47,865 nt of DNA from Actinomycetota bacterium (GTDB taxonomy: Bacteria; Actinomycetota; UBA4738; HRBIN12). Position 1 is the first letter of the stretch. Each line of letters starts with the position of its first letter. A program made the translations under genes and the position numbers. Of the stretch, positions 737 to 47,865 are shown one piece after another. The notes below the pieces were generated by a model. The model was not told the DNA's origin. It made no database searches and saw nothing but the letters and a program-made list of their open reading frames with translations. The stretch is from contig DASSCU010000036.1 in the NCBI GenBank assembly GCA_035697485.1, positions 1 to 47,865 of the forward strand, given 5' to 3'.

Positions 737-2463
737 AGCGCCCTCGGGTTCGCCAGGTTGAAGGCGAGCAAGGCAAGGAACGCGGCCGCGACGATCACGG
801 TGCGCGCGGTCAACACGATCCGACGCATGCTCCATCGCTGGATCGCGATCGTGTCGTGTTCGGGAGCGAGGGTCCTGTACCGACCGATGAGGTCCGGCGC
901 GTGCTCCTTCAGGTGCTCGCGGAGCTGGCGCGGGATCGCCGGTCCTCGAGCCGCACCGAAGGCCTCCCCGATCTCATCAGGATCGAAGATCCCGACGGCC
1001 CGGTCGTAGACGCGCTCCGGGGTGGTGGCGAGCCCGAGCACCAGCATCATGTTCGCGAGGTCCACCACTTGGCGCCATGGCGTCGGTCGCATCTGGCCGA
1101 ACGCGACGTCGATCAGGAATACGTGGTCGCCGCGCACGAGCACGTTCGCCGGCTTGATGTCGCGGTGCGCGAGCCCGTGGTCCCAGAGGGTGCGGATGAT
1201 GCGAAGGCCATCGTCGATCGCGGCGTCCGACAGTTCGGCGTCCTGGTCCGCTTCGGTCGCTCGCTCGAGGAAGGTCATCAGCAAGAGGTACTCACGTTCG
1301 GCCTCGAGCTCGACGAACCCGCGGGGCTCCACGCTGCGAACGCCTGCCTCGTGCATCACGCGCAGCATGTAGTCCTCGTACTCGACCAGCCGTCGGACGG
1401 ACTCGAACGCGACCTCATCCTCCAGCTCGCCGTACAGGATCGTCCGCGAGAGCTTGTACCAGCGGTCGGCCCGGAGGTGCCCAGCGGAGTAGAGCTTGCC
1501 GAACAACGTTTCCACGCGGCCCCCGTCCACGCGACGCACCTCGAGCCGTAGCGGCGTCGACGCGCCGGATCCCTCCTCGCCGAAGGGCTCGACGGTGATC
1601 AGCTCGAGCCCGGCCTGCTCGTCGAGGGCTTCGCGGATCGCCTCCTGCCTGCGCTCGTCGATCGCGAGGTGCGCTGCCCGGCCGCGGTCATACCTCACGG
1701 GAAAGATCTCGTCGGGGACGAAGAGGCGGAAGGCGATCGTCGCCACCGCCACCGCCCCGATCGCACCGACGAGCACGTCGCTGGGGTGGTCCACGCCGAG
1801 GTAGACGCGCGCGAGCGCCAGCAGGCTCACGAGGGCTGCCGCGCACCACATCGCGCGGGTCCGCCAACGGCCCGCCGGGACCAGTGCGTGTCCGGCCGCG
1901 ACCACGGCCACGGCGAAGGCCGCGACGTGGGTCGAGGGGTTGGCGTAGCCCTCCCATCCATAGAGGTAGGGCACGTCCCAGGGTCGGGGCCGCTGGATCA
2001 CCCACGTGAGGGTCGAGGCGGCGAGACGGACGACGAGAAGTGTCCCGATGAAGACGACCAGCGTTCGCCCCCGTTGGAATACAGCGAGCACGAGCACCGG
2101 CGCCCACCGTAGGAACAGGACCAGCCCGACCGATCCGAGGAGCGCGATGGTTCGAGCTGCAGACGTCAGCCCATCGGACCGAACGGCAACCATCGCATCG
2201 AGCAATGCGGCGTCGGCACGCTGCGCCACCCCGATCGGCCGTCCGTCCTCGAACAGGACGAACCAGATCACCGAGAGGATGAATGCTCCGAGGATCCAGG
2301 TCCAACCCATCCAGCCCATGTCGATCGGCAGACGCTCGGGTCCGCCGGCCGGACGGCGTCGCTTGATCAGTGGCAGGGTCGCGAGGGGAGACTCCTCGGC
2401 GACGTCGTCATTGACGACGGCATCGTCCTCGGGCCGCGTCGTGGTGGGACCGGACGCCGTCAC
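733..2463 (-). CDS. PAP2 phosphatase fused to a protein/lipid-kinase-like domain
   Basis: 576 aa. GTG start at 2463, chosen for the GGAGG 7 nt upstream. The N-terminal half is a multi-spanning PAP2 (type 2 phosphatidic acid phosphatase) domain: QRPRPWD (R-P of motif 1), NPSTH (motif 2, usually PSGH) and RVYLGVDHPSD (motif 3, SRxxxxxHxxxD-like). After a soluble linker comes a kinase fold with a GKLYS strand, a catalytic loop HRDIKPANVL and a metal-binding FLIDVAFGQ in DFG position, as in RIO/lipopolysaccharide-kinase-like proteins. The C-terminus is a final membrane helix. The likely role is lipid (undecaprenyl- or phosphatidyl-type) phosphate handling coupled to phosphorylation. Substrates are unknown. 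Divergent from a second PAP2 gene 198 bp away. Confidence 0.85.
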   Translation of the reverse strand: MTASGPTTTRPEDDAVVNDDVAEESPLATLPLIKRRRPAGGPERLPIDMGWMGWTWILGAFILSVIWFVLFEDGRPIGVAQRADAALLDAMVAVRSDGLTSAARTIALLGSVGLVLFLRWAPVLVLAVFQRGRTLVVFIGTLLVVRLAASTLTWVIQRPRPWDVPYLYGWEGYANPSTHVAAFAVAVVAAGHALVPAGRWRTRAMWCAAALVSLLALARVYLGVDHPSDVLVGAIGAVAVATIAFRLFVPDEIFPVRYDRGRAAHLAIDERRQEAIREALDEQAGLELITVEPFGEEGSGASTPLRLEVRRVDGGRVETLFGKLYSAGHLRADRWYKLSRTILYGELEDEVAFESVRRLVEYEDYMLRVMHEAGVRSVEPRGFVELEAEREYLLLMTFLERATEADQDAELSDAAIDDGLRIIRTLWDHGLAHRDIKPANVLVRGDHVFLIDVAFGQMRPTPWRQVVDLANMMLVLGLATTPERVYDRAVGIFDPDEIGEAFGAARGPAIPRQLREHLKEHAPDLIGRYRTLAPEHDTIAIQRWSMRRIVLTARTVIVAAAFLALLAFNLANPRAL

Positions 2464-2661
2464 CCTGGCGCCTCCAGAGGGCGATCGACTGTGCCGATCG
2501 CACGCTGCGGCACCTTCGCTCGGCAGCAGCCCCCGCCGTCTCTGTCGGCCCTCCGCATGTCCCGCCTCCCGCGTTCTCCTACCCGAAACACCGGGAGCCA
2601 TGCATCAGCTGACCTGCAAGCGGCGAGTTTCCGCGGACGGCGACGTGGGGACGATCCCCGC
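2464..2661. other. Divergent intergenic region between two PAP2 genes
   Basis: 198 bp separating oppositely oriented membrane-phosphatase genes; it must hold both promoters. A ribosome binding site (GGAGG on the minus strand) is clear for the left gene. No confident -10/-35 pair or operator could be picked by eye. Confidence 0.4.
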
Positions 2662-3366
2662 ATGGAGGTTCAGGCCCGCACCGGCTTCGCGAGACTCGTC
2701 GCATCGAACGTGCGGCGGCGGCGCGCTGACGTCGTTGCATTGGCGTGCGGTCTCGTCGTGCTGGCGATCTCGATCGGGTTGCTGGGGCGGCTCGACCGCG
2801 TGCCCGAACTCGAGCGCAACGTGTTCCGTGCGATCAACGGTCTGCCCTCCGCATGGAACGTGGTGGTCACGCCTCCGATGTTCCTCGGCACGCTCGCGTC
2901 GGTCCCGCTCTTCATGGTCGTTTGCGGTCTGTTCCGGAAGTTCCGGATGGGGTTCGTGCTCGGCATCGCCGGACTCGTGGCCTACCTGCTCGCGCGTCTC
3001 GGGAAACACCTCGTCGGGCGCGGGCGACCGGGCGAAGTGTTCGCCGACCTGCAGCTGCGCGATGTGGACGCGACAGGACTCGGCTTCCCGTCCGGCCACG
3101 CCGCGGTCTCTGCGGCGATGGTGGTGGCAGCCTTGCCCTATCTACCTCCGCGCTGGAGACCGCCCGTGCTGTTGTTCCCGCTGTTCATGGCGTTCGCGCG
3201 TGTGTACACGGGGGCACATCTTCCGCTCGACGTCGTGAGCGGTGCGGCCATCGGCGTCGTGGTCGGCTCGAGCCTGCACCTGCTCCTTGGCGTGCCCCTG
3301 GTGCCCGCGGCGGACCCCCCCGTCGTCGCCCCTGCGGTCGAGGGAACTCCGGGAACGGGGGCGTGA
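2662..3366 (+). CDS. PAP2-family membrane phosphatase
   Basis: 234 aa from the ATG at 2662; the longer upstream frame has no hydrophobic or conserved content. A stand-alone PAP2 lipid phosphatase with about six membrane helices. All three signature motifs are present: KHLVGRGRP (K-x6-RP, ~residue 113), FPSGH (~140) and RVYTGAHLPLD (R-x5-H-x3-D, ~180). His in motifs 2 and 3 and Asp in motif 3 form the catalytic centre in this family. Probable substrates are polyprenyl or phosphatidyl phosphates on the outer membrane leaflet. The C-terminal ~25 residues are a Pro/Ala-rich tail. Unlike its fused neighbour it keeps the canonical PSGH. Confidence 0.87.
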   Translation: MEVQARTGFARLVASNVRRRRADVVALACGLVVLAISIGLLGRLDRVPELERNVFRAINGLPSAWNVVVTPPMFLGTLASVPLFMVVCGLFRKFRMGFVLGIAGLVAYLLARLGKHLVGRGRPGEVFADLQLRDVDATGLGFPSGHAAVSAAMVVAALPYLPPRWRPPVLLFPLFMAFARVYTGAHLPLDVVSGAAIGVVVGSSLHLLLGVPLVPAADPPVVAPAVEGTPGTGA

Positions 3367-40665: not shown

Positions 40666-41592
40666 TCAGTCGTTCACGTAGGTCAGCCAGTCCGCGTACT
40701 TCGCGTCGTCGCCCTTCGTGGCGGCGAAGAACGCGTCCTGCAGGGCCTTCGTGACCGGCCCCCGATGCCCCGCGCCCACCGTGCGATCGTCGACCTCGCG
40801 GATCGGGGTGATCTCGGCGGCGGTCCCCGTGAAGAACACCTCGTCGGCCGTGTACAGGTCGGTGCGCACCAGGTGCTGCTCGATCACCGGGAAGCCGAGG
40901 TCGCGCGCGATCGTCATGACCGCGGCCCGGGTGACGCCCGCCAGACACCCGTGTCCCGTGTGCGGCGTCACGATCGTGCCGCCGTTGACGACGAAGATGT
41001 TCTCGCCGGAGCCCTCCGTGACGTAGCCATCGTCGTTCAGGAGCACGGCCTCGTCGTAGCCGGACTTCGTGGCGTCGACCTTCGCGAGGATCGAGCCGAG
41101 GTAACCGCCCGTCGCCTTGGCGGCGGAGGGGAGCGAGTTCTGGTCGTGGCGCTTCCACGAGCTGATCTTCACCCGAACGCCCTGCTCGAGGGCTTCTTCG
41201 CCGAGATAGGCCCCCCACGGCCACACCGCGATCGAGACGTCGACGGGGTTGGCGAGCGGGCTGACGCCCATCTCGCCGTAGCCACGGAACGCGATCGGGC
41301 GGATGTAGCACGACTGCAACCCGTTGGCGCGGATCGTGTCCTTCACCGCGTCGATGAGCTCCGCCTTGGAGAACGGGATCTCCATGAAGTAGATGGAGGC
41401 CGACGAGTACATGCGGTCGAGGTGCGCGTCGAGGTGCCACACGGCGGGGCCGCGGGTCGTCTCGTACGCCCGGATGCCCTCGAATACGCCGCTGCCGTAG
41501 TGCAGGGCGTGGCTGAGCACGTGGACCTTGGCCTCTTGCCAGGGCACGAGCTCGCCGTTCATCCAGATCGTCTCGACCTCGGTGATCGGCAC
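40666..41592 (-). CDS. ilvE: Branched-chain amino acid aminotransferase
   Basis: 308 aa, GTG start at 41592 with AGGAGG upstream. A fold-type IV PLP aminotransferase: IWMNGELVPWQEAKVHVLSHALHYGSGVFEGIRAYE, then the PLP Lys in PSAAKATGGYLGS, the conserved Glu in YVTEGSGENIFVV, and GCLAGVTRAAVM. It matches bacterial IlvE (about 305 aa), which transaminates Leu, Ile and Val with 2-oxoglutarate in the cytoplasm. It stands alone. Upstream, TATCCT on the minus strand (41654-41649) could be its -10 with a leader of ~50 nt. Confidence 0.93.
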   Translation of the reverse strand: MPITEVETIWMNGELVPWQEAKVHVLSHALHYGSGVFEGIRAYETTRGPAVWHLDAHLDRMYSSASIYFMEIPFSKAELIDAVKDTIRANGLQSCYIRPIAFRGYGEMGVSPLANPVDVSIAVWPWGAYLGEEALEQGVRVKISSWKRHDQNSLPSAAKATGGYLGSILAKVDATKSGYDEAVLLNDDGYVTEGSGENIFVVNGGTIVTPHTGHGCLAGVTRAAVMTIARDLGFPVIEQHLVRTDLYTADEVFFTGTAAEITPIREVDDRTVGAGHRGPVTKALQDAFFAATKGDDAKYADWLTYVND

Positions 41593-41722: not shown

Positions 41723-42106
41723 ATGCACGAGGATCAGCTGACGCCGAGCGAGGGGCCGTCGCCAACCGACGTCGACGCCGACGATGGTGAGACGATGGAA
41801 GACCTGATCAGCGGCATGGACCGGTACGCGGGTGCCGATGAGCACACGACCCTCGCCGAGCAGCACGACGGCGACACGATCGACGAGCGGAACCGCCGCG
41901 AGCAGCTCGCGGCGCGCCGAGACTTCGCAGGCGTCGACCTCGTCGACGAGAGCGACGACGGCGTCGATCGCGAGAAGGATCTCGTCGGCGATCCCGAGGC
42001 GTCAGACGGGCCCGTGCCGGCCGAGCTGGCCGCGATGCACGTCGTCGACGAGGCGCCCGGCGTCGTCGACCATCCGGACGACTACGTGGAGCCCGAGACT
42101 CGGTAG
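41723..42106 (+). CDS. Small acidic protein (DUF5709-like at most)
   Basis: 127 aa from ATG 41723. Very acidic: runs such as DVDADDGETMEDL, VDLVDESDDGVD and VDHPDDYVEPE. Probably mostly disordered. The AELAAMHVVDEAPG segment near the end recalls the 'AEEAAVHIV' end of small actinobacterial DUF5709 proteins, but this is weak. No signal, no metal motif. Its 3' end overlaps the convergent methyltransferase gene by 25 bp. Confidence 0.65.
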   Translation: MHEDQLTPSEGPSPTDVDADDGETMEDLISGMDRYAGADEHTTLAEQHDGDTIDERNRREQLAARRDFAGVDLVDESDDGVDREKDLVGDPEASDGPVPAELAAMHVVDEAPGVVDHPDDYVEPETR

Positions 42107-42864
42107 CGGTGCCAGCGCATCGGCGCCTCGGGGTCGAGAGGCGCATCCCAGTCGTCGTAACGCTCGGCCGCCCACGCCCGCACGTCGTCGATCGCACGCC
42201 TGAGATCCTCGTCGCTCGCCCGCCACGTCCAGGAGTACGTGCGAGCCGACGCCTCGTCGAAGAACTTCGAGAGCGAGCCGCCGAAGTGGCCCGGGGCGTC
42301 GACCACGCCGAACGGCTCGGCTCCGACAGCCGTGAACGCCTCGTCGAGCGCCCCGGGCTCCCGGTCGCGGGACAACCCGACCGGCTCGGCATCGGGGCCG
42401 ATCTCGAAGATCATGCGATCCATGACCTCGCGCCACAGGCCCGAGAACCCCCCGGGCTCGATCGCGACCACCCCGCCCGGCCGCACCGTCCGGACGAGCT
42501 CGGCCACGGCGTAGGGCCACGCCGGGATCAGATGGAGGACCCATCGGGCGTAGGCGCCGACGAACGCCTCGTCGCGGAACGGCAGTCGGGTGGCGTCCGC
42601 GAGCGCCAGCCCGACGTTCGGGGACTTCTCGCGGAGCCGCGCCATCATCTCGCGGGAGAGGTCGATGCCGACGACCCGGACGCCCCTGGCAGCGAGTGGC
42701 ACGGCCAGCGCCCCGGTGCCGACCCCGATCTCGAGCACGGGACCCTCGCCGATCGCGACGTCACGGTCGAGCAGGTCGACCGTGACGCGGAGCGTCTCCT
42801 CGTCGGTGACGCGGGTGGAGTCGTAGAACGAGGCAGCCCGGTCGAACGAGACCGAGTCGCTCAT
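42082..42864 (-). CDS. SAM-dependent methyltransferase (class I)
   Basis: 260 aa from ATG 42864, which overlaps the TGA of the oxygenase gene (ATGA, 42861-42864). Rossmann-like methyltransferase: FDRAASFYDSTRV, motif I VLEIGVGTGALAVPLAARG, acidic end of strand 2 in VVGIDLSREMM, LALADATRLPFRDEAF (motif II/III) and VRPGGVVAIEPGG. Small-molecule methylation is likely (UbiE/COQ5-like group). Translational coupling to a ring-hydroxylating-oxygenase-like protein suggests a shared substrate or a methyl-group salvage role. Confidence 0.9.
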   Translation of the reverse strand: MSDSVSFDRAASFYDSTRVTDEETLRVTVDLLDRDVAIGEGPVLEIGVGTGALAVPLAARGVRVVGIDLSREMMARLREKSPNVGLALADATRLPFRDEAFVGAYARWVLHLIPAWPYAVAELVRTVRPGGVVAIEPGGFSGLWREVMDRMIFEIGPDAEPVGLSRDREPGALDEAFTAVGAEPFGVVDAPGHFGGSLSKFFDEASARTYSWTWRASDEDLRRAIDDVRAWAAERYDDWDAPLDPEAPMRWHRYRVSGST

Positions 42865-43817
42865 GCCCCGTGCAGCAGTTCCCGACGCGGGTACGCGGTG
42901 GATGAAGGTTGCTCGGGTCGCCCCGGCACGTCGCCCCGCAGGTAGCCGTCGGCGATCATGCGCACCTGCATGTAGACACCGCCTTCCCAGACGGTCGACA
43001 TCGGCCCGGCCCGGTGACCGCGCGAGGTCGCCGCGCGCTGCAGCGACTCACACGCGGCCCAATCCTCACGGTTCGTGACGTCCCAGAAGTCGACCGCGTA
43101 GGCGGGATCGAAGCCCCCGAGCTCGAGCGCCTCCGGCGGGAACAGCCACTCACACTCCACGTAGCTCCGGTCTGGTGCGATCGGCTCGATCCGGTGGGTG
43201 AGCACGTAATCGGGGTGCGGGCTGATCAGCAGGTTCGGGAAGATGCCGAAGTAGCCCACCTCGCGCAGCTGGTGACCGCGCAGGCCGCGGATCGGCACGC
43301 CGTGCGATGCTCCGTCGAGCGACATCGTCTCGACGCCCTCGTACAGGTCCATCGGCCCCGCGACGTAGAGTCCCTGGATGTCGATCGAGTAGCCGCTGTC
43401 GGGCGGGGTCACCGTGCAGAGCTCGGGGTGGATCTCGGAGCAGTGGTAACACTCCTGGTAGTTCTCGTGGATCAGCTTCCAGTTCGCCGCGATCTCGTAC
43501 GAGTGCCGCGCTGCCGCCACGAGTCGCTCGGGCTCCCATGGCGCGAGGTGCTCCCAGAGGTTCCCGAACTGCTCCTCGGCGTCGATGCCGTCGGGGTCAC
43601 GGCGCACGAACACCCACCCCCCGCGTTCGATCTGCCCGGCCGCACGGCGATGGGCGCCGGTCCGCCCGATACACACCCACGATCGGTCGAAGAAGCGTTC
43701 TCGCTCCCACGCGAGCACGTCTGGCGACGTGTAGGCCTCGCCGGGGAGCCCGTGCGAGAGCCCGAACGGGCTGGCGCACCGCTGCAATGCATCTCGGTCG
43801 ACCGGCGCCGCGCTCAT
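42861..43817 (-). CDS. Ring-hydroxylating oxygenase alpha subunit lacking its Rieske domain
   Basis: 318 aa from ATG 43817. The catalytic half is complete: EIAANWKLIHENYQECYHCSEIH gives Asn119, Glu122 and the iron ligands His125 and His130; NREDWAACESLQ gives Asp252 as third ligand. The start EAYTSPDVLAWERERFFDRSWVCIGRT is also normal. Then, at residues ~53-66 (43660-43620), the text jumps to IERGGWVFVRRDPDG, which belongs after the Rieske domain. The CxH...CxxH iron-sulfur site (~85-100 aa) is absent; relatives are ~390-420 aa. The frame is kept. It resembles GbcA/choline-monooxygenase-like proteins. As written it cannot receive electrons in the usual way. Confidence 0.8.
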   Translation of the reverse strand: MSAAPVDRDALQRCASPFGLSHGLPGEAYTSPDVLAWERERFFDRSWVCIGRTGAHRRAAGQIERGGWVFVRRDPDGIDAEEQFGNLWEHLAPWEPERLVAAARHSYEIAANWKLIHENYQECYHCSEIHPELCTVTPPDSGYSIDIQGLYVAGPMDLYEGVETMSLDGASHGVPIRGLRGHQLREVGYFGIFPNLLISPHPDYVLTHRIEPIAPDRSYVECEWLFPPEALELGGFDPAYAVDFWDVTNREDWAACESLQRAATSRGHRAGPMSTVWEGGVYMQVRMIADGYLRGDVPGRPEQPSSTAYPRRELLHGA

Positions 43818-43862: not shown

Positions 43863-44405
43863 TCAATTCAAGGAAGGGTCGCGCGGCATCAGGCGCAGCA
43901 GGTCGTAACCGCGCCCGAGCCTGCGCAGCACGTCCTCCCACAGGCGCCCCGGATCGTCGTGGAAGACGTCGTCGGGCAGCGCGGGCGCGGTCACCCAACT
44001 CTCCTCCTCGAGCTCCGCTTCGAGCTGGCCGGGGCCCCACCCGGCATACCCCGCGTATACGCGCGCACGGCGGATCACCTCGCCGATGTCGCCGCCGGCC
44101 TCCGGGGGCAGGAAGCCGATCGACCCCACCGCCAACAGCTCGGCCCTCGAAGGATCGAGGAAGTCGGCGAGCACGACGATCGATGCGGGCTCGACCGGGC
44201 CGCCATCGAACAGCGGTTCCTCGGGGTCGACCAGGTCACCGAGCGGCGGCACCGCCTCGCGGACCGACACCCCGAGCGACTGGTTCAGCACGACCCCGAC
44301 CGCCCCGTCGTCGTCGTGATGGCCGACCAGCACGACCGTGCGACGGAAGTTCGGATCGAACAGGTTCGAGTTCGAGATCAGCAGATGGCCGGTGAGAGGT
44401 TCCAC
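43863..44405 (-). CDS. AlgH/YqgE (DUF179) family protein
   Basis: 180 aa from a GTG at 44405. Text typical of YqgE/AlgH: GHLLISNSNLFDPNFRRTVVLVGHHDDDGAVGVVLNQSLG, then LFDGGPVEPASIVVLADF, then RARVYAGYAGWGPGQLEAELEEESWV. A compact alpha/beta protein found widely and of unsettled function (once linked to alginate control). Cytoplasmic. The usual position near redox or nucleotide genes is not kept here; it follows the APH-like kinase by 7 bp. The Shine-Dalgarno is very close to the GTG, so the exact start is uncertain. Confidence 0.9.
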   Translation of the reverse strand: MEPLTGHLLISNSNLFDPNFRRTVVLVGHHDDDGAVGVVLNQSLGVSVREAVPPLGDLVDPEEPLFDGGPVEPASIVVLADFLDPSRAELLAVGSIGFLPPEAGGDIGEVIRRARVYAGYAGWGPGQLEAELEEESWVTAPALPDDVFHDDPGRLWEDVLRRLGRGYDLLRLMPRDPSLN

Positions 44406-44412
44406 CCCTCCA

Positions 44413-45273
44413 TCATGCCGCGTCGAGCAGCCATGTGGCTGCCTCGATGTGCTCGCGCATCGGCCCGTCGTCGTCGAAGCACCACGACACCGTGTGTGCC
44501 ATCGACCACAGCCGCGCCCGCTCCCGGTCGAGCCCGAGCTCCGCGGTGACCCGGTCGAGTCGTCGCAACACCGCCTCCCGGGTGTGTCCGAGCTCCCGGC
44601 CACGCACGATCGACGCGACCCCGAACTCGCGCTCTCCCATCAGAGGCTTCGGGTCGATCAGGAGCCACGGCTCTCGCTCGGCCGCGAGCACGTTGTCGGC
44701 ATGCAGGTCCTGGTTCACGAGCACCTGCTCGCCCTGCGTCGGCGCGAGCGACTCGAACGCCTCCGTCGCGGCGTCGATCAGCCGCTCCTCGATCGTGCGA
44801 CCCGTGCCCTCCCAGTGCTCGCGCATCTCGACGATCAGGTCGGCGACCTCATCGGCGAGCGGTCTGAACGGTTCACCGGCCGCGATCCAGACCCGCGGGA
44901 GCAGCCCGATCAACACGTCGAGGGCGGCTTCGGTGTCCTCGTTCGTGAGCGGCGTGCCCGGCGTGCAGCGCTCGAGCAACATCACCCGTCGGTCGGGATC
45001 TTCGTCGAGCAGGAGCACGGCGCCGCTCCCGTCGAGCCGGCGGAGCGCCTCGCCTTCGAGCTCTCCCTCGCGGTCGGGGATGCCGATCTTCAGCACGACC
45101 GCCTCGCCGTCGCGACTCGCCGGCATCGTGAGCGAGGCGATGCTGTTCGTCCACGGTTCCCCGAGCGTCAGCGACCACCGCCGCGAGCACGCGTCGAGGA
45201 TCGCCGGCAGCTCGTCGAGCCATGATGAGAGCCGAGGGTCGCCGCGCCAGACCTCCAGATGCTCGTAGGTCAC
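44413..45273 (-). CDS. APH(6)/hydroxyurea-type aminoglycoside phosphotransferase-like kinase
   Basis: 286 aa from a GTG at 45273. Kinase fold of the APH(6)/hydroxyurea-phosphotransferase family: VVLKIGIPDREGELEGEALRRLDGSGAVLLLDED (N-lobe, Lys and Glu), VMLLERCTPGTPL, catalytic loop VNQDLHADNVLAA and metal-binding WLLIDPKPLMGE. It phosphorylates hydroxyls of small molecules. Resistance is only one possibility and no resistance phenotype can be claimed from sequence. TACGCT 7 nt before the GTG indicates a leaderless promoter of its own, 17 bp after the DmdA-like gene. Confidence 0.87.
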   Translation of the reverse strand: MTYEHLEVWRGDPRLSSWLDELPAILDACSRRWSLTLGEPWTNSIASLTMPASRDGEAVVLKIGIPDREGELEGEALRRLDGSGAVLLLDEDPDRRVMLLERCTPGTPLTNEDTEAALDVLIGLLPRVWIAAGEPFRPLADEVADLIVEMREHWEGTGRTIEERLIDAATEAFESLAPTQGEQVLVNQDLHADNVLAAEREPWLLIDPKPLMGEREFGVASIVRGRELGHTREAVLRRLDRVTAELGLDRERARLWSMAHTVSWCFDDDGPMREHIEAATWLLDAA

Positions 45274-45290: not shown

Positions 45291-46448
45291 TCAGCTCCTC
45301 GCCGGGATCTCCTTCTTCGGGTCGAGGAACGGCAACGGGGTCACCGTGGCCGTCATCGGGCCGTCGGGTGACGCGATCTCGACGCGCGTACCATCGCCGG
45401 CTAAGTCGATCGGCACCCACGCGAAGCCCATGTTGAACTCGAGCCGCGGCGAGTACGAGGCGCTCACGAGCCGGCCGACCTGCTCGTCGCCATCGACGAC
45501 CGGCCAGAAGTCCTCGAGCCACATGCCGAGGGGATCGCCGTCGATCCTCACGCCGACGAGCTTCTGCTGCACGCCTTCGTCGCGGATCCGCTCGAGCGCG
45601 TTCCGGGAGACGAACTCGTTGTCGCTGTCGAGCTCGACAAGCCGCTCGAGGCCGGTGATCTCGAACGGGTTGTTCGTGATGTCCATGTCGCTGCCGTAGT
45701 TGAAGATGCCGGCTTCCATGCGGCGCTGGTCGCTCGGGGCGATCGCCCGCAGCCCGAACTCCTCGCCGGCGGCCATGATCGCGTCCCACAGGTCGTGGGC
45801 CATCGAGGAATCGCGCAGGTACACCTCGTAGCCCAGCTCCGCGCTCCATCCCGTGCGCGAGACGACTACCGGGATGCCGTCGAGCTCGGTCTGCTTGTGC
45901 CAGTAGTACCTCTGGTCGGCCACGTCGTCGCCGAAGAGCTCGCGGATCAGCGGCTTCGACAGCGGGCCCTGGATCTGCAGCGGCGACACGTCGGGCTCAC
46001 GGATCTCGACGTCCATGTCCGCGAACGCCTGCACGCCGAGCGCGTACAGCAGCGCGTCGCTGTCGGCGAGCGAGAGCCAGAAGTGGTCCTCGGCGAGCTT
46101 CAGCAGGATCGGGTCGTTCACGATGCCGCCGTCGGGCGCGCAGAGCAGCACGTACTTGCACTGTTCGGGCTGGGTCTGCGACAGGTCGCGGGGCGTGAGC
46201 AGCTGGGTGAACCGCGCGGCGTCGGGACCGGTGATCTCCACCTGACGCTCGACCGCGACGTCCCAGAGCGTCACCTTCTCGACGAGGTGCCAGTACTCCT
46301 TGATGTCGTCGTCGTACAGCGTCGGGATCAGCATGTGGTTGTACAGATCCCAGCTGGTGCACCCGGCTTCCACGGTGCGCTGGAAGTAGGGCGACTTCTT
46401 GTACCAGCTCGCGAAGTAGAACGGGAACGACGAGTTCGGCTCGGCCAT
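45291..46448 (-). CDS. DmdA-like tetrahydrofolate-dependent demethylase (GcvT family)
   Basis: 385 aa from ATG 46448 with GGAAGGG upstream. GcvT/aminomethyltransferase fold (folate-binding domain plus C-terminal barrel). Segments follow dimethylsulfoniopropionate demethylase DmdA closely: YNHMLIPT, WDVAVERQVEITGPDA, LLTPRDLS, GGIVNDPILLKL, WLSLADSD, IQGPLSKPLIRELFG, SRTGWSAELGYEVY, FNYGSDMDITNNPFE and VELDSDNEFVS. It would pass a methyl or one-carbon unit from a sulfonium or methylamine donor to tetrahydrofolate. DmdA proper versus a related methylamine enzyme (dimethylglycine- or sarcosine-type) cannot be settled here. It follows the flavoprotein gene by 7 bp. Confidence 0.87.
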   Translation of the reverse strand: MAEPNSSFPFYFASWYKKSPYFQRTVEAGCTSWDLYNHMLIPTLYDDDIKEYWHLVEKVTLWDVAVERQVEITGPDAARFTQLLTPRDLSQTQPEQCKYVLLCAPDGGIVNDPILLKLAEDHFWLSLADSDALLYALGVQAFADMDVEIREPDVSPLQIQGPLSKPLIRELFGDDVADQRYYWHKQTELDGIPVVVSRTGWSAELGYEVYLRDSSMAHDLWDAIMAAGEEFGLRAIAPSDQRRMEAGIFNYGSDMDITNNPFEITGLERLVELDSDNEFVSRNALERIRDEGVQQKLVGVRIDGDPLGMWLEDFWPVVDGDEQVGRLVSASYSPRLEFNMGFAWVPIDLAGDGTRVEIASPDGPMTATVTPLPFLDPKKEIPARS

Positions 46449-46455
46449 CGGTTGC

Positions 46456-47865
46456 TCAACCCTTCCGTCTCAGCGGACCGCGCCGGCGGTCCTTCTTGAT
46501 CTCGCGGACCATGTTGTACGCGGGGATGCCGCAGACGCCGCCGCCGGCGTGCGTGGCGCTGGAGCACTGGTACAACCCCCGGATCGGCGTGCGGTAGTCG
46601 GCGTATCCGGGCGCCGGTCGCATGTGGAAGAGCTGCTCGGCGCTGAGCTCCCCGTGGAAGATGTTCCCGCCGATCAGCCCCCACTCCTGCTCCATCTCGT
46701 GGGGGCCGATCACCTGGCGGTGCAGCACGGAGTCGGCGAACCCGGGCGCGAGCTCGTCGTAACCGGCGATCACGCGGTCGGCGTACGCCTCGAGCTCGGC
46801 CGGGTGCGGCTCCTCGCTCCACTCGTGCGGAACCCACTGCGTGAACAGCGAGACGACGTGCTTGCCCTCGGGGGCGAGCGTGTGGTCGAAGACGGTCGGC
46901 ATCACGCCGTCGCTGAACGGCGCGGTCGCCGGCTCTCCAGCGCGCGCCTGCTCGAAGGCCTTTTCGAGGTAGGCGACCGAGTGCGCGAGCTCGAACCCGC
47001 CCGTCAGGTCGGTGAGCTCCGGCATCGCGGTGAAGACCGGAGCGCGGTCGAGCGCGGCGTTGATCTTCACGACGCCGCTGCGCGTCTTCCAGTTCGCGAT
47101 GTCGTCCATGAAGTCGGCGGGAAGGTCGACCCGGTCGATCTGCTCGAGGAACGTGATCTTCGGGTGGATCGCCGTGACGACGAGCGGCGCCCGCACCTCT
47201 TCACCGGAGTCGAGCACGACGCCGGTCGTGGCGCCGCCCTCGACGAGGATCCTCGCGACCCTGGCCCCGGTGCGGATCTCGGCGCCATAGGAACGGGCGC
47301 TCGAGGCGATCGCGTCGCTCACGGCGCCCATGCCGCCCTCGGGCACCGCCCACGAGCCGAGGTGGCCGTCGCCCACGTCGCCGATCGAGTGGTGCGCCAT
47401 CACGTAGCCGGTGCCGGGCTCGTACGGCCCCGCCCACGTGCCGATCAGGCCGTTGAGCGCCATGACCGTCTTCACCTGGTCGGATTCGAAGAACCGATCG
47501 AGCAGGTCGACGACCGACATCGTCATCAGCTGGGTCACGTCGGCGAGCCCGCGCACGTCGAGCCCTCGGAAGCGCCACGCGAGCCGCAGCTGCTCGGTGA
47601 GATCGGAGGGCTTCAACGAGCCGAGCCTGGGCGGCGTCGTCATCATCAGCGGCCCCAGCACCTCGGCGAGTCCGCCGATCCACGCGTCCCATCGCTCGAT
47701 CGCGTCGGCGTCGCGCTTGCTGAACTGGGCGAACGACTCGTAGTTCTTCTTCGCGTCGTCGTCGGCCTGCAGGATGGCGCGACCGTCAGGGAACGGCAGG
47801 AAGTACGGCCCGACCGGCGTCGACCGATACCCATGGCGCGCGAGCTCGAGGTCGCGCAGGATCGT
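46456..47865 (-). CDS. FAD-dependent oxidoreductase, PYROXD2/CrtI-like, 5' end outside window
   Basis: At least 469 aa, open to the right edge; the N-terminal FAD-binding GxGxxG must lie beyond it. Visible text belongs to phytoene-desaturase-like amine oxidase flavoproteins: LELARHGYRSTPVGPYFLPFPDGR, AEVLGPLMMTTPPRL, FESDQVKTVMALNGLIGTWAGPYEPGT (substrate domain), GATTGVVLDSGEEVRAPLVVTAIHP (FAD-domain strand), and the C-terminal GGNIFHGELSAEQLFHMRPAPGYADYRTPIRGLYQCSSATHAGGGVCGIPAYN. This matches PYROXD2-like proteins of unknown substrate rather than carotenoid enzymes. It is co-transcribed with the DmdA-like demethylase. Confidence 0.9.
   Translation of the reverse strand, partial: TILRDLELARHGYRSTPVGPYFLPFPDGRAILQADDDAKKNYESFAQFSKRDADAIERWDAWIGGLAEVLGPLMMTTPPRLGSLKPSDLTEQLRLAWRFRGLDVRGLADVTQLMTMSVVDLLDRFFESDQVKTVMALNGLIGTWAGPYEPGTGYVMAHHSIGDVGDGHLGSWAVPEGGMGAVSDAIASSARSYGAEIRTGARVARILVEGGATTGVVLDSGEEVRAPLVVTAIHPKITFLEQIDRVDLPADFMDDIANWKTRSGVVKINAALDRAPVFTAMPELTDLTGGFELAHSVAYLEKAFEQARAGEPATAPFSDGVMPTVFDHTLAPEGKHVVSLFTQWVPHEWSEEPHPAELEAYADRVIAGYDELAPGFADSVLHRQVIGPHEMEQEWGLIGGNIFHGELSAEQLFHMRPAPGYADYRTPIRGLYQCSSATHAGGGVCGIPAYNMVREIKKDRRRGPLRRKG

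Follow-up and report, generated by a model that had tools for sequence, protein, structure and literature searches.

In Rieske oxygenases, the iron-sulfur cluster of one subunit serves the mononuclear iron of the next, about 12 Å away (PMC12445004), and these enzymes are described as needing this supply from a neighbor. The group V members that act on carnitine (CntA), stachydrine (Stc2), glycine betaine (GbcA/BmoA) and choline (choline monooxygenases) are all full-length proteins. In CntA, mutants of the bridging glutamate E205 were all inactive, and the passage of electrons to the iron was impaired (PMC7948474). Residue Y203 of the same enzyme binds the ammonium group of the substrate and marks group Va, and loss of the aromatic ring at this position abolishes or lowers activity. 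A cysteine pair is moreover needed for full CntA activity, which is lowered or abolished when either member is lost (PMC10952381). A catalytic subunit of the Rieske oxygenase type that receives its electrons from the Rieske cluster of another protein has been described in NdmC, part of the NdmCDE 7-methylxanthine N7-demethylase of Pseudomonas putida CBB5, which depends on NdmD, a reductase carrying a Rieske domain, and on NdmE (PMC4408171, PMC10380055). Our searches of the literature for Rieske oxygenases without a Rieske domain returned the NdmC work only. Two different alpha-type subunits can also assemble with each other, as in the α3α′3 heterohexamer of NdmA and NdmB (PMC10380055, PMC12445004).

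The window analyzed here, a stretch of 47,865 nucleotides from an Actinomycetota genome (G000; the genomes compared with it are numbered G001, G009 and so on), encodes a ring-hydroxylating oxygenase alpha-type protein that lacks the Rieske domain. This gene, which we call RL, lies at 42861..43817 on the minus strand, as do all window features named below. It is an uninterrupted open reading frame, with an ATG start and a TGA stop, that encodes 318 amino acids. Pfam detects the mononuclear-iron catalytic domain PF00848 (Ring_hydroxyl_A; residues 97-290, 42948..43529, E 3e-45) and no Rieske domain (PF00355) in RL, and finds both domains in a full-length paralogue encoded by the same genome. Alignment with 27 full-length relatives showed that RL is colinear with them apart from one main gap, located at the junction Q62|I63 (43631..43632), where the relatives carry 85-93 extra residues (mostly 85) that include the cluster-binding CxH...CxxH motif. 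The N-terminal segment that precedes the cluster in these relatives is retained (residues 1-62, 43632..43817). An earlier note on this DNA had placed a clean in-frame loss of the Rieske domain at 43620-43660, and the junction codons indeed fall inside that range; a segment is missing as it had proposed, with the size coming down from its estimate of about 270 bp to about 255 bp. No frame on either strand contains the CxH...CxxH motif between 39000 and 47865, and a profile search for PF00355 gave no match anywhere on the contig, which rules out a separate Rieske gene beside RL. An AlphaFold model of RL, computed from an alignment of five sequences only, had a mean pLDDT of 33, too low to be informative.

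To define which residues are retained, near-invariant columns were taken from 25 full-length relatives, giving 77 in total and 63 in the catalytic domain. RL and its orthologs in G001 and G009, which together make up the window lineage, keep 61 of these 63; the exceptions are A153, a glycine in the full-length proteins, in all three sequences, and position 240 in G009 alone. The remaining near-invariant differences, at positions 65, 72, 77 and 87, lie beside the junction. All three residues of the 2-His-1-carboxylate triad of Rieske oxygenase alpha subunits occupy near-invariant columns in RL: H125, within the C123-Y-H125-C126 stretch (43440..43451), H130 (43428..43430) and D252 (43062..43064), just as had been read from the sequence of RL alone. 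The RL motif ENYQECYHCSEIHPELC aligns with CntA, and structure 6Y9C, of the CntA C209A mutant, has its alanine in the same column as C126 of the window protein. This fixes the register, so that E122 (43452..43454) corresponds to the bridging glutamate E205 (PMC7948474), Y120 (43458..43460) to Y203, the π-cation residue of group Va quaternary-amine oxygenases, and the C123/C126 pair to C206/C209; H125 and H130 likewise have matching residues in CntA. RL thus has both marks of group V, an aromatic residue at CntA position 203 and a CxxC pair by the iron. The nearest solved chains are 3n0q, 3vca, 4qup and 6y8j, and the GbcA model (NF058607) scores RL at 90 bits, below its cut-off of 670.

The same short gene was found in other genomes. 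G001, of the same genus, encodes a colinear copy with 88% identity; this gene crosses a contig break, and the two contigs share about 135-140 bp across the junction. G009, from another genus of the same family and assembled in seven contigs, encodes a short form that aligns without gaps at 71% identity over 295 amino acids. The dN/dS ratio between RL and the G001 copy was 0.134 (272 codons), and that of the full-length paralogues of the same two genomes was 0.181; for the G009 comparison the corresponding values were 0.26 and 0.43. These ratios indicate that purifying selection has preserved the short form since the domain was lost. Surveys of 396 Actinomycetota genomes, of the 27 genomes of the order, of 39 from the family of G233 and of 24 from the class of G042 brought up one further colinear short form, in the single draft genome G233 of a different, distant actinobacterial family. 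It is 55% identical to RL and keeps all 63 near-invariant catalytic columns. Plasmid records gave only distant matches, below 60% identity, and a scan of viral contigs for further sequences to include in the structure model found none. In a maximum-likelihood tree of the catalytic domain, the three sequences of the window lineage form one clade (support 100/100), and the G233 short form pairs with the full-length-type protein of G155 (100/99). In this G155 gene (contig C29, locus L053, about position 1857), the Rieske part is present and a frameshift, either a sequencing error or the mark of a pseudogene, occurs just before ENYHECYH. The two well-supported clades force the conclusion that the Rieske domain was lost independently at least twice in Actinomycetota. 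The search for the shortened form in relatives, which the earlier note had suggested, returned colinear genes, kept by purifying selection, in genomes that had been assembled separately. The alternative it had left open, a loss during assembly, is not borne out, as the junction is identical in these separate assemblies. Together, these results exclude assembly loss or recent decay and confirm that RL is a genuine, selected protein.

RL belongs to a conserved gene block. Its stop codon overlaps the start of a SAM-dependent methyltransferase gene (Methyltransf_11; 42082..42864) in an ATGA at 42861-42864, so the coupling that had been reported from the sequence is real, and it is kept in both relatives (ATGA in G001, TTGA in G009). 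A branched-chain amino-acid transaminase gene lies downstream of the methyltransferase (40666..41592). Upstream of RL are an AlgH-like gene identified by its DUF179 domain (43863..44378; found in the same position in G001 and further members of the family, and not found at the G009 locus), a GcvT/DmdA-like gene for a folate-dependent methyl-transfer enzyme (45291..46448) and a gene for an FAD-dependent oxidoreductase of the amino-oxidase/CrtO-like type, cut by the window end (46456..47865). Synteny also holds for the transaminase, GcvT-like and oxidoreductase genes. Between the GcvT-like and AlgH genes sits an aminoglycoside/hydroxyurea phosphotransferase-like gene (44413-45264; PF04655 APH_6_hur, E 6e-31) that we did not find at the corresponding loci of G001, G009 and the other family members examined. 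In sister genera, most clearly in G014, the order is FAD oxidoreductase, GcvT-like, AlgH, second GcvT-like, methyltransferase, branched-chain transaminase and aminopeptidase. In the window and in G001, RL occupies the slot of the second GcvT-like gene of G014, and in G009 the short oxygenase directly follows the first GcvT-like gene. The full-length paralogue itself adjoins two GcvT-like genes in G000 (contig C20, locus L038, 5208-8955) and in G009. In G024 and G026, which belong to another family, a GcvT-like gene lies directly 3′ of a full-length oxygenase. The GcvT-like proteins resemble DmdA and score below the curated DmdA cut-off (362 versus 410 bits). This context of GcvT-like, FAD-dependent and methyltransferase genes points to a block that may remove a methyl group from a betaine-like compound.

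We propose that RL is a functional catalytic subunit that would be reduced in trans, most likely by the full-length paralogue within a mixed trimer, a reading to which we assign a probability of roughly 55%. A quaternary-amine (group V) Rieske oxygenase that lost a domain would be the ancestor of RL, whose predicted mononuclear Fe(II) site may still oxidize a methylated ammonium-type substrate. A Rieske cluster carried by another polypeptide would dock where the Rieske domain of the neighboring alpha subunit normally sits, and the electron would enter the iron site through E122. The retention of E122 suggests that a cluster probably still docks there, although it is not specific evidence, because nearly all near-invariant residues are kept. 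As for the donor, one full-length alpha subunit of the mixed trimer could serve the iron of the short subunit. Each of the four genomes that encode a short form carries the paralogue as well, a co-occurrence that weighs little since 16 of the 27 genomes surveyed in the order have a strong match to it. In the window genome it lies on contig C20, not beside RL. The identity of the partner is the least certain part of this proposal.

We also considered whether RL might depend on an NdmD-type reductase. FNR-type reductases (PF00970, FAD_binding_6) gave no match in G000, G001 or G009, and a control search with the same profile returned matches in 8 of 14 genomes; to the extent that their assemblies are complete, an NdmD-type partner is therefore ruled out in these three genomes. 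Each of the three encodes two or three full-length Rieske oxygenases, which must then use another type of reductase. No GST-like gene of the NdmE type was seen next to RL.

A variant of this proposal, in which a stand-alone Rieske ferredoxin rather than the paralogue would dock directly at the catalytic iron, is unlikely but fares best among the alternatives. Contigs C64, C43, C29 and C58 of the window genome do encode stand-alone Rieske proteins, and relatives of the C58 protein and of the SUF-operon Rieske protein occur in all three genomes. The C64 ferredoxin (locus L101, about 2928-3195) adjoins an NADH-ferredoxin reductase of the AndAa/HcaD type (BphA4/AndAa-type; 1649-3058), and the pair has an ortholog in G001. 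However, G009 encodes the short form but nothing closely matching this pair, and the reductase occurs in G008 and G014, which lack the short form. Because its distribution does not track that of the short form, this pair is ruled out as a dedicated partner, and no such ferredoxin gene lies near RL. Together with the presence of the paralogue in all four genomes, this favors, without proving, the mixed trimer.

Less probable still is that domain loss, occurring at least twice in Actinomycetota, gave rise to an oxygenase truly free of Rieske clusters, powered by hydrogen peroxide through a shunt or reduced directly by another donor, for example the flavoprotein of the gene block. Such chemistry has a precedent in CntA, in which a peroxide shunt can take the place of NADH and the reductase (PMC10952381). 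A conserved neighbor of RL is a flavoprotein, and FNR-type reductases are missing from the three genomes. However, the bridging glutamate, clearly needed only in a Rieske-coupled mechanism, is kept in every short form. To our knowledge, peroxide shunts in Rieske oxygenases are in vitro side reactions, which also counts against this reading. The retained glutamate and the constant presence of the paralogue make supply of the cluster in trans likelier than Rieske-free chemistry. The suggestion in the earlier note of a Rieske-free iron oxygenase thus stands insofar as a Rieske-less oxygenase-like protein exists, and its stronger suggestion, of a novel route of electron delivery, goes beyond what the data show.

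We consider it about equally improbable that RL has lost oxygenase chemistry altogether and now acts as a substrate-binding or a structural or regulatory subunit. The independent loss of the cluster domain in two lineages and the position of RL in the operon slot of a second GcvT-like gene would fit such a role, but a non-catalytic protein would not need the iron ligands, the bridging glutamate, the CxxC pair and the 61 of 63 near-invariant residues that RL keeps. Finally, although G001 at least is a metagenome-assembled genome and the others are multi-contig drafts, an assembly error or recent pseudogene is very improbable, as the identical junction in separate assemblies (88% and 71% identity), the intact frame and the dN/dS of 0.13 refute it for the window lineage and leave only the single G233 copy to such a reading.

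RL has its closest counterparts in systems that are already known. RL shares with the group V enzymes the catalytic domain, the 2-His-1-Asp ligands, the bridging glutamate, the CxxC pair and the tyrosine of group Va, and differs from them in lacking the 85 residues of the Rieske domain that bind the cluster. The question that RL poses is whether the cluster is supplied in trans by the paralogue or the catalytic domain works alone. A natural, repeated, in-frame domain loss under purifying selection, in genomes without an NdmD-like reductase, offers a ready-made system in which to test it, and proteins that match only PF00848 should not be thrown out as fragments. The mixed trimer proposed here would recall the joint assembly of NdmA and NdmB, both of which, unlike RL, retain their Rieske domains. 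NdmC, according to its published description, is like RL a Rieske-oxygenase-type catalytic subunit without a Rieske domain; its system includes the FNR-type NdmD, whereas G000, G001 and G009 show no reductase of that type. A Rieske-less catalytic subunit is therefore an already-known kind of protein, for which NdmC is the precedent, and it is in its arrangement without an NdmD-like reductase that RL differs.
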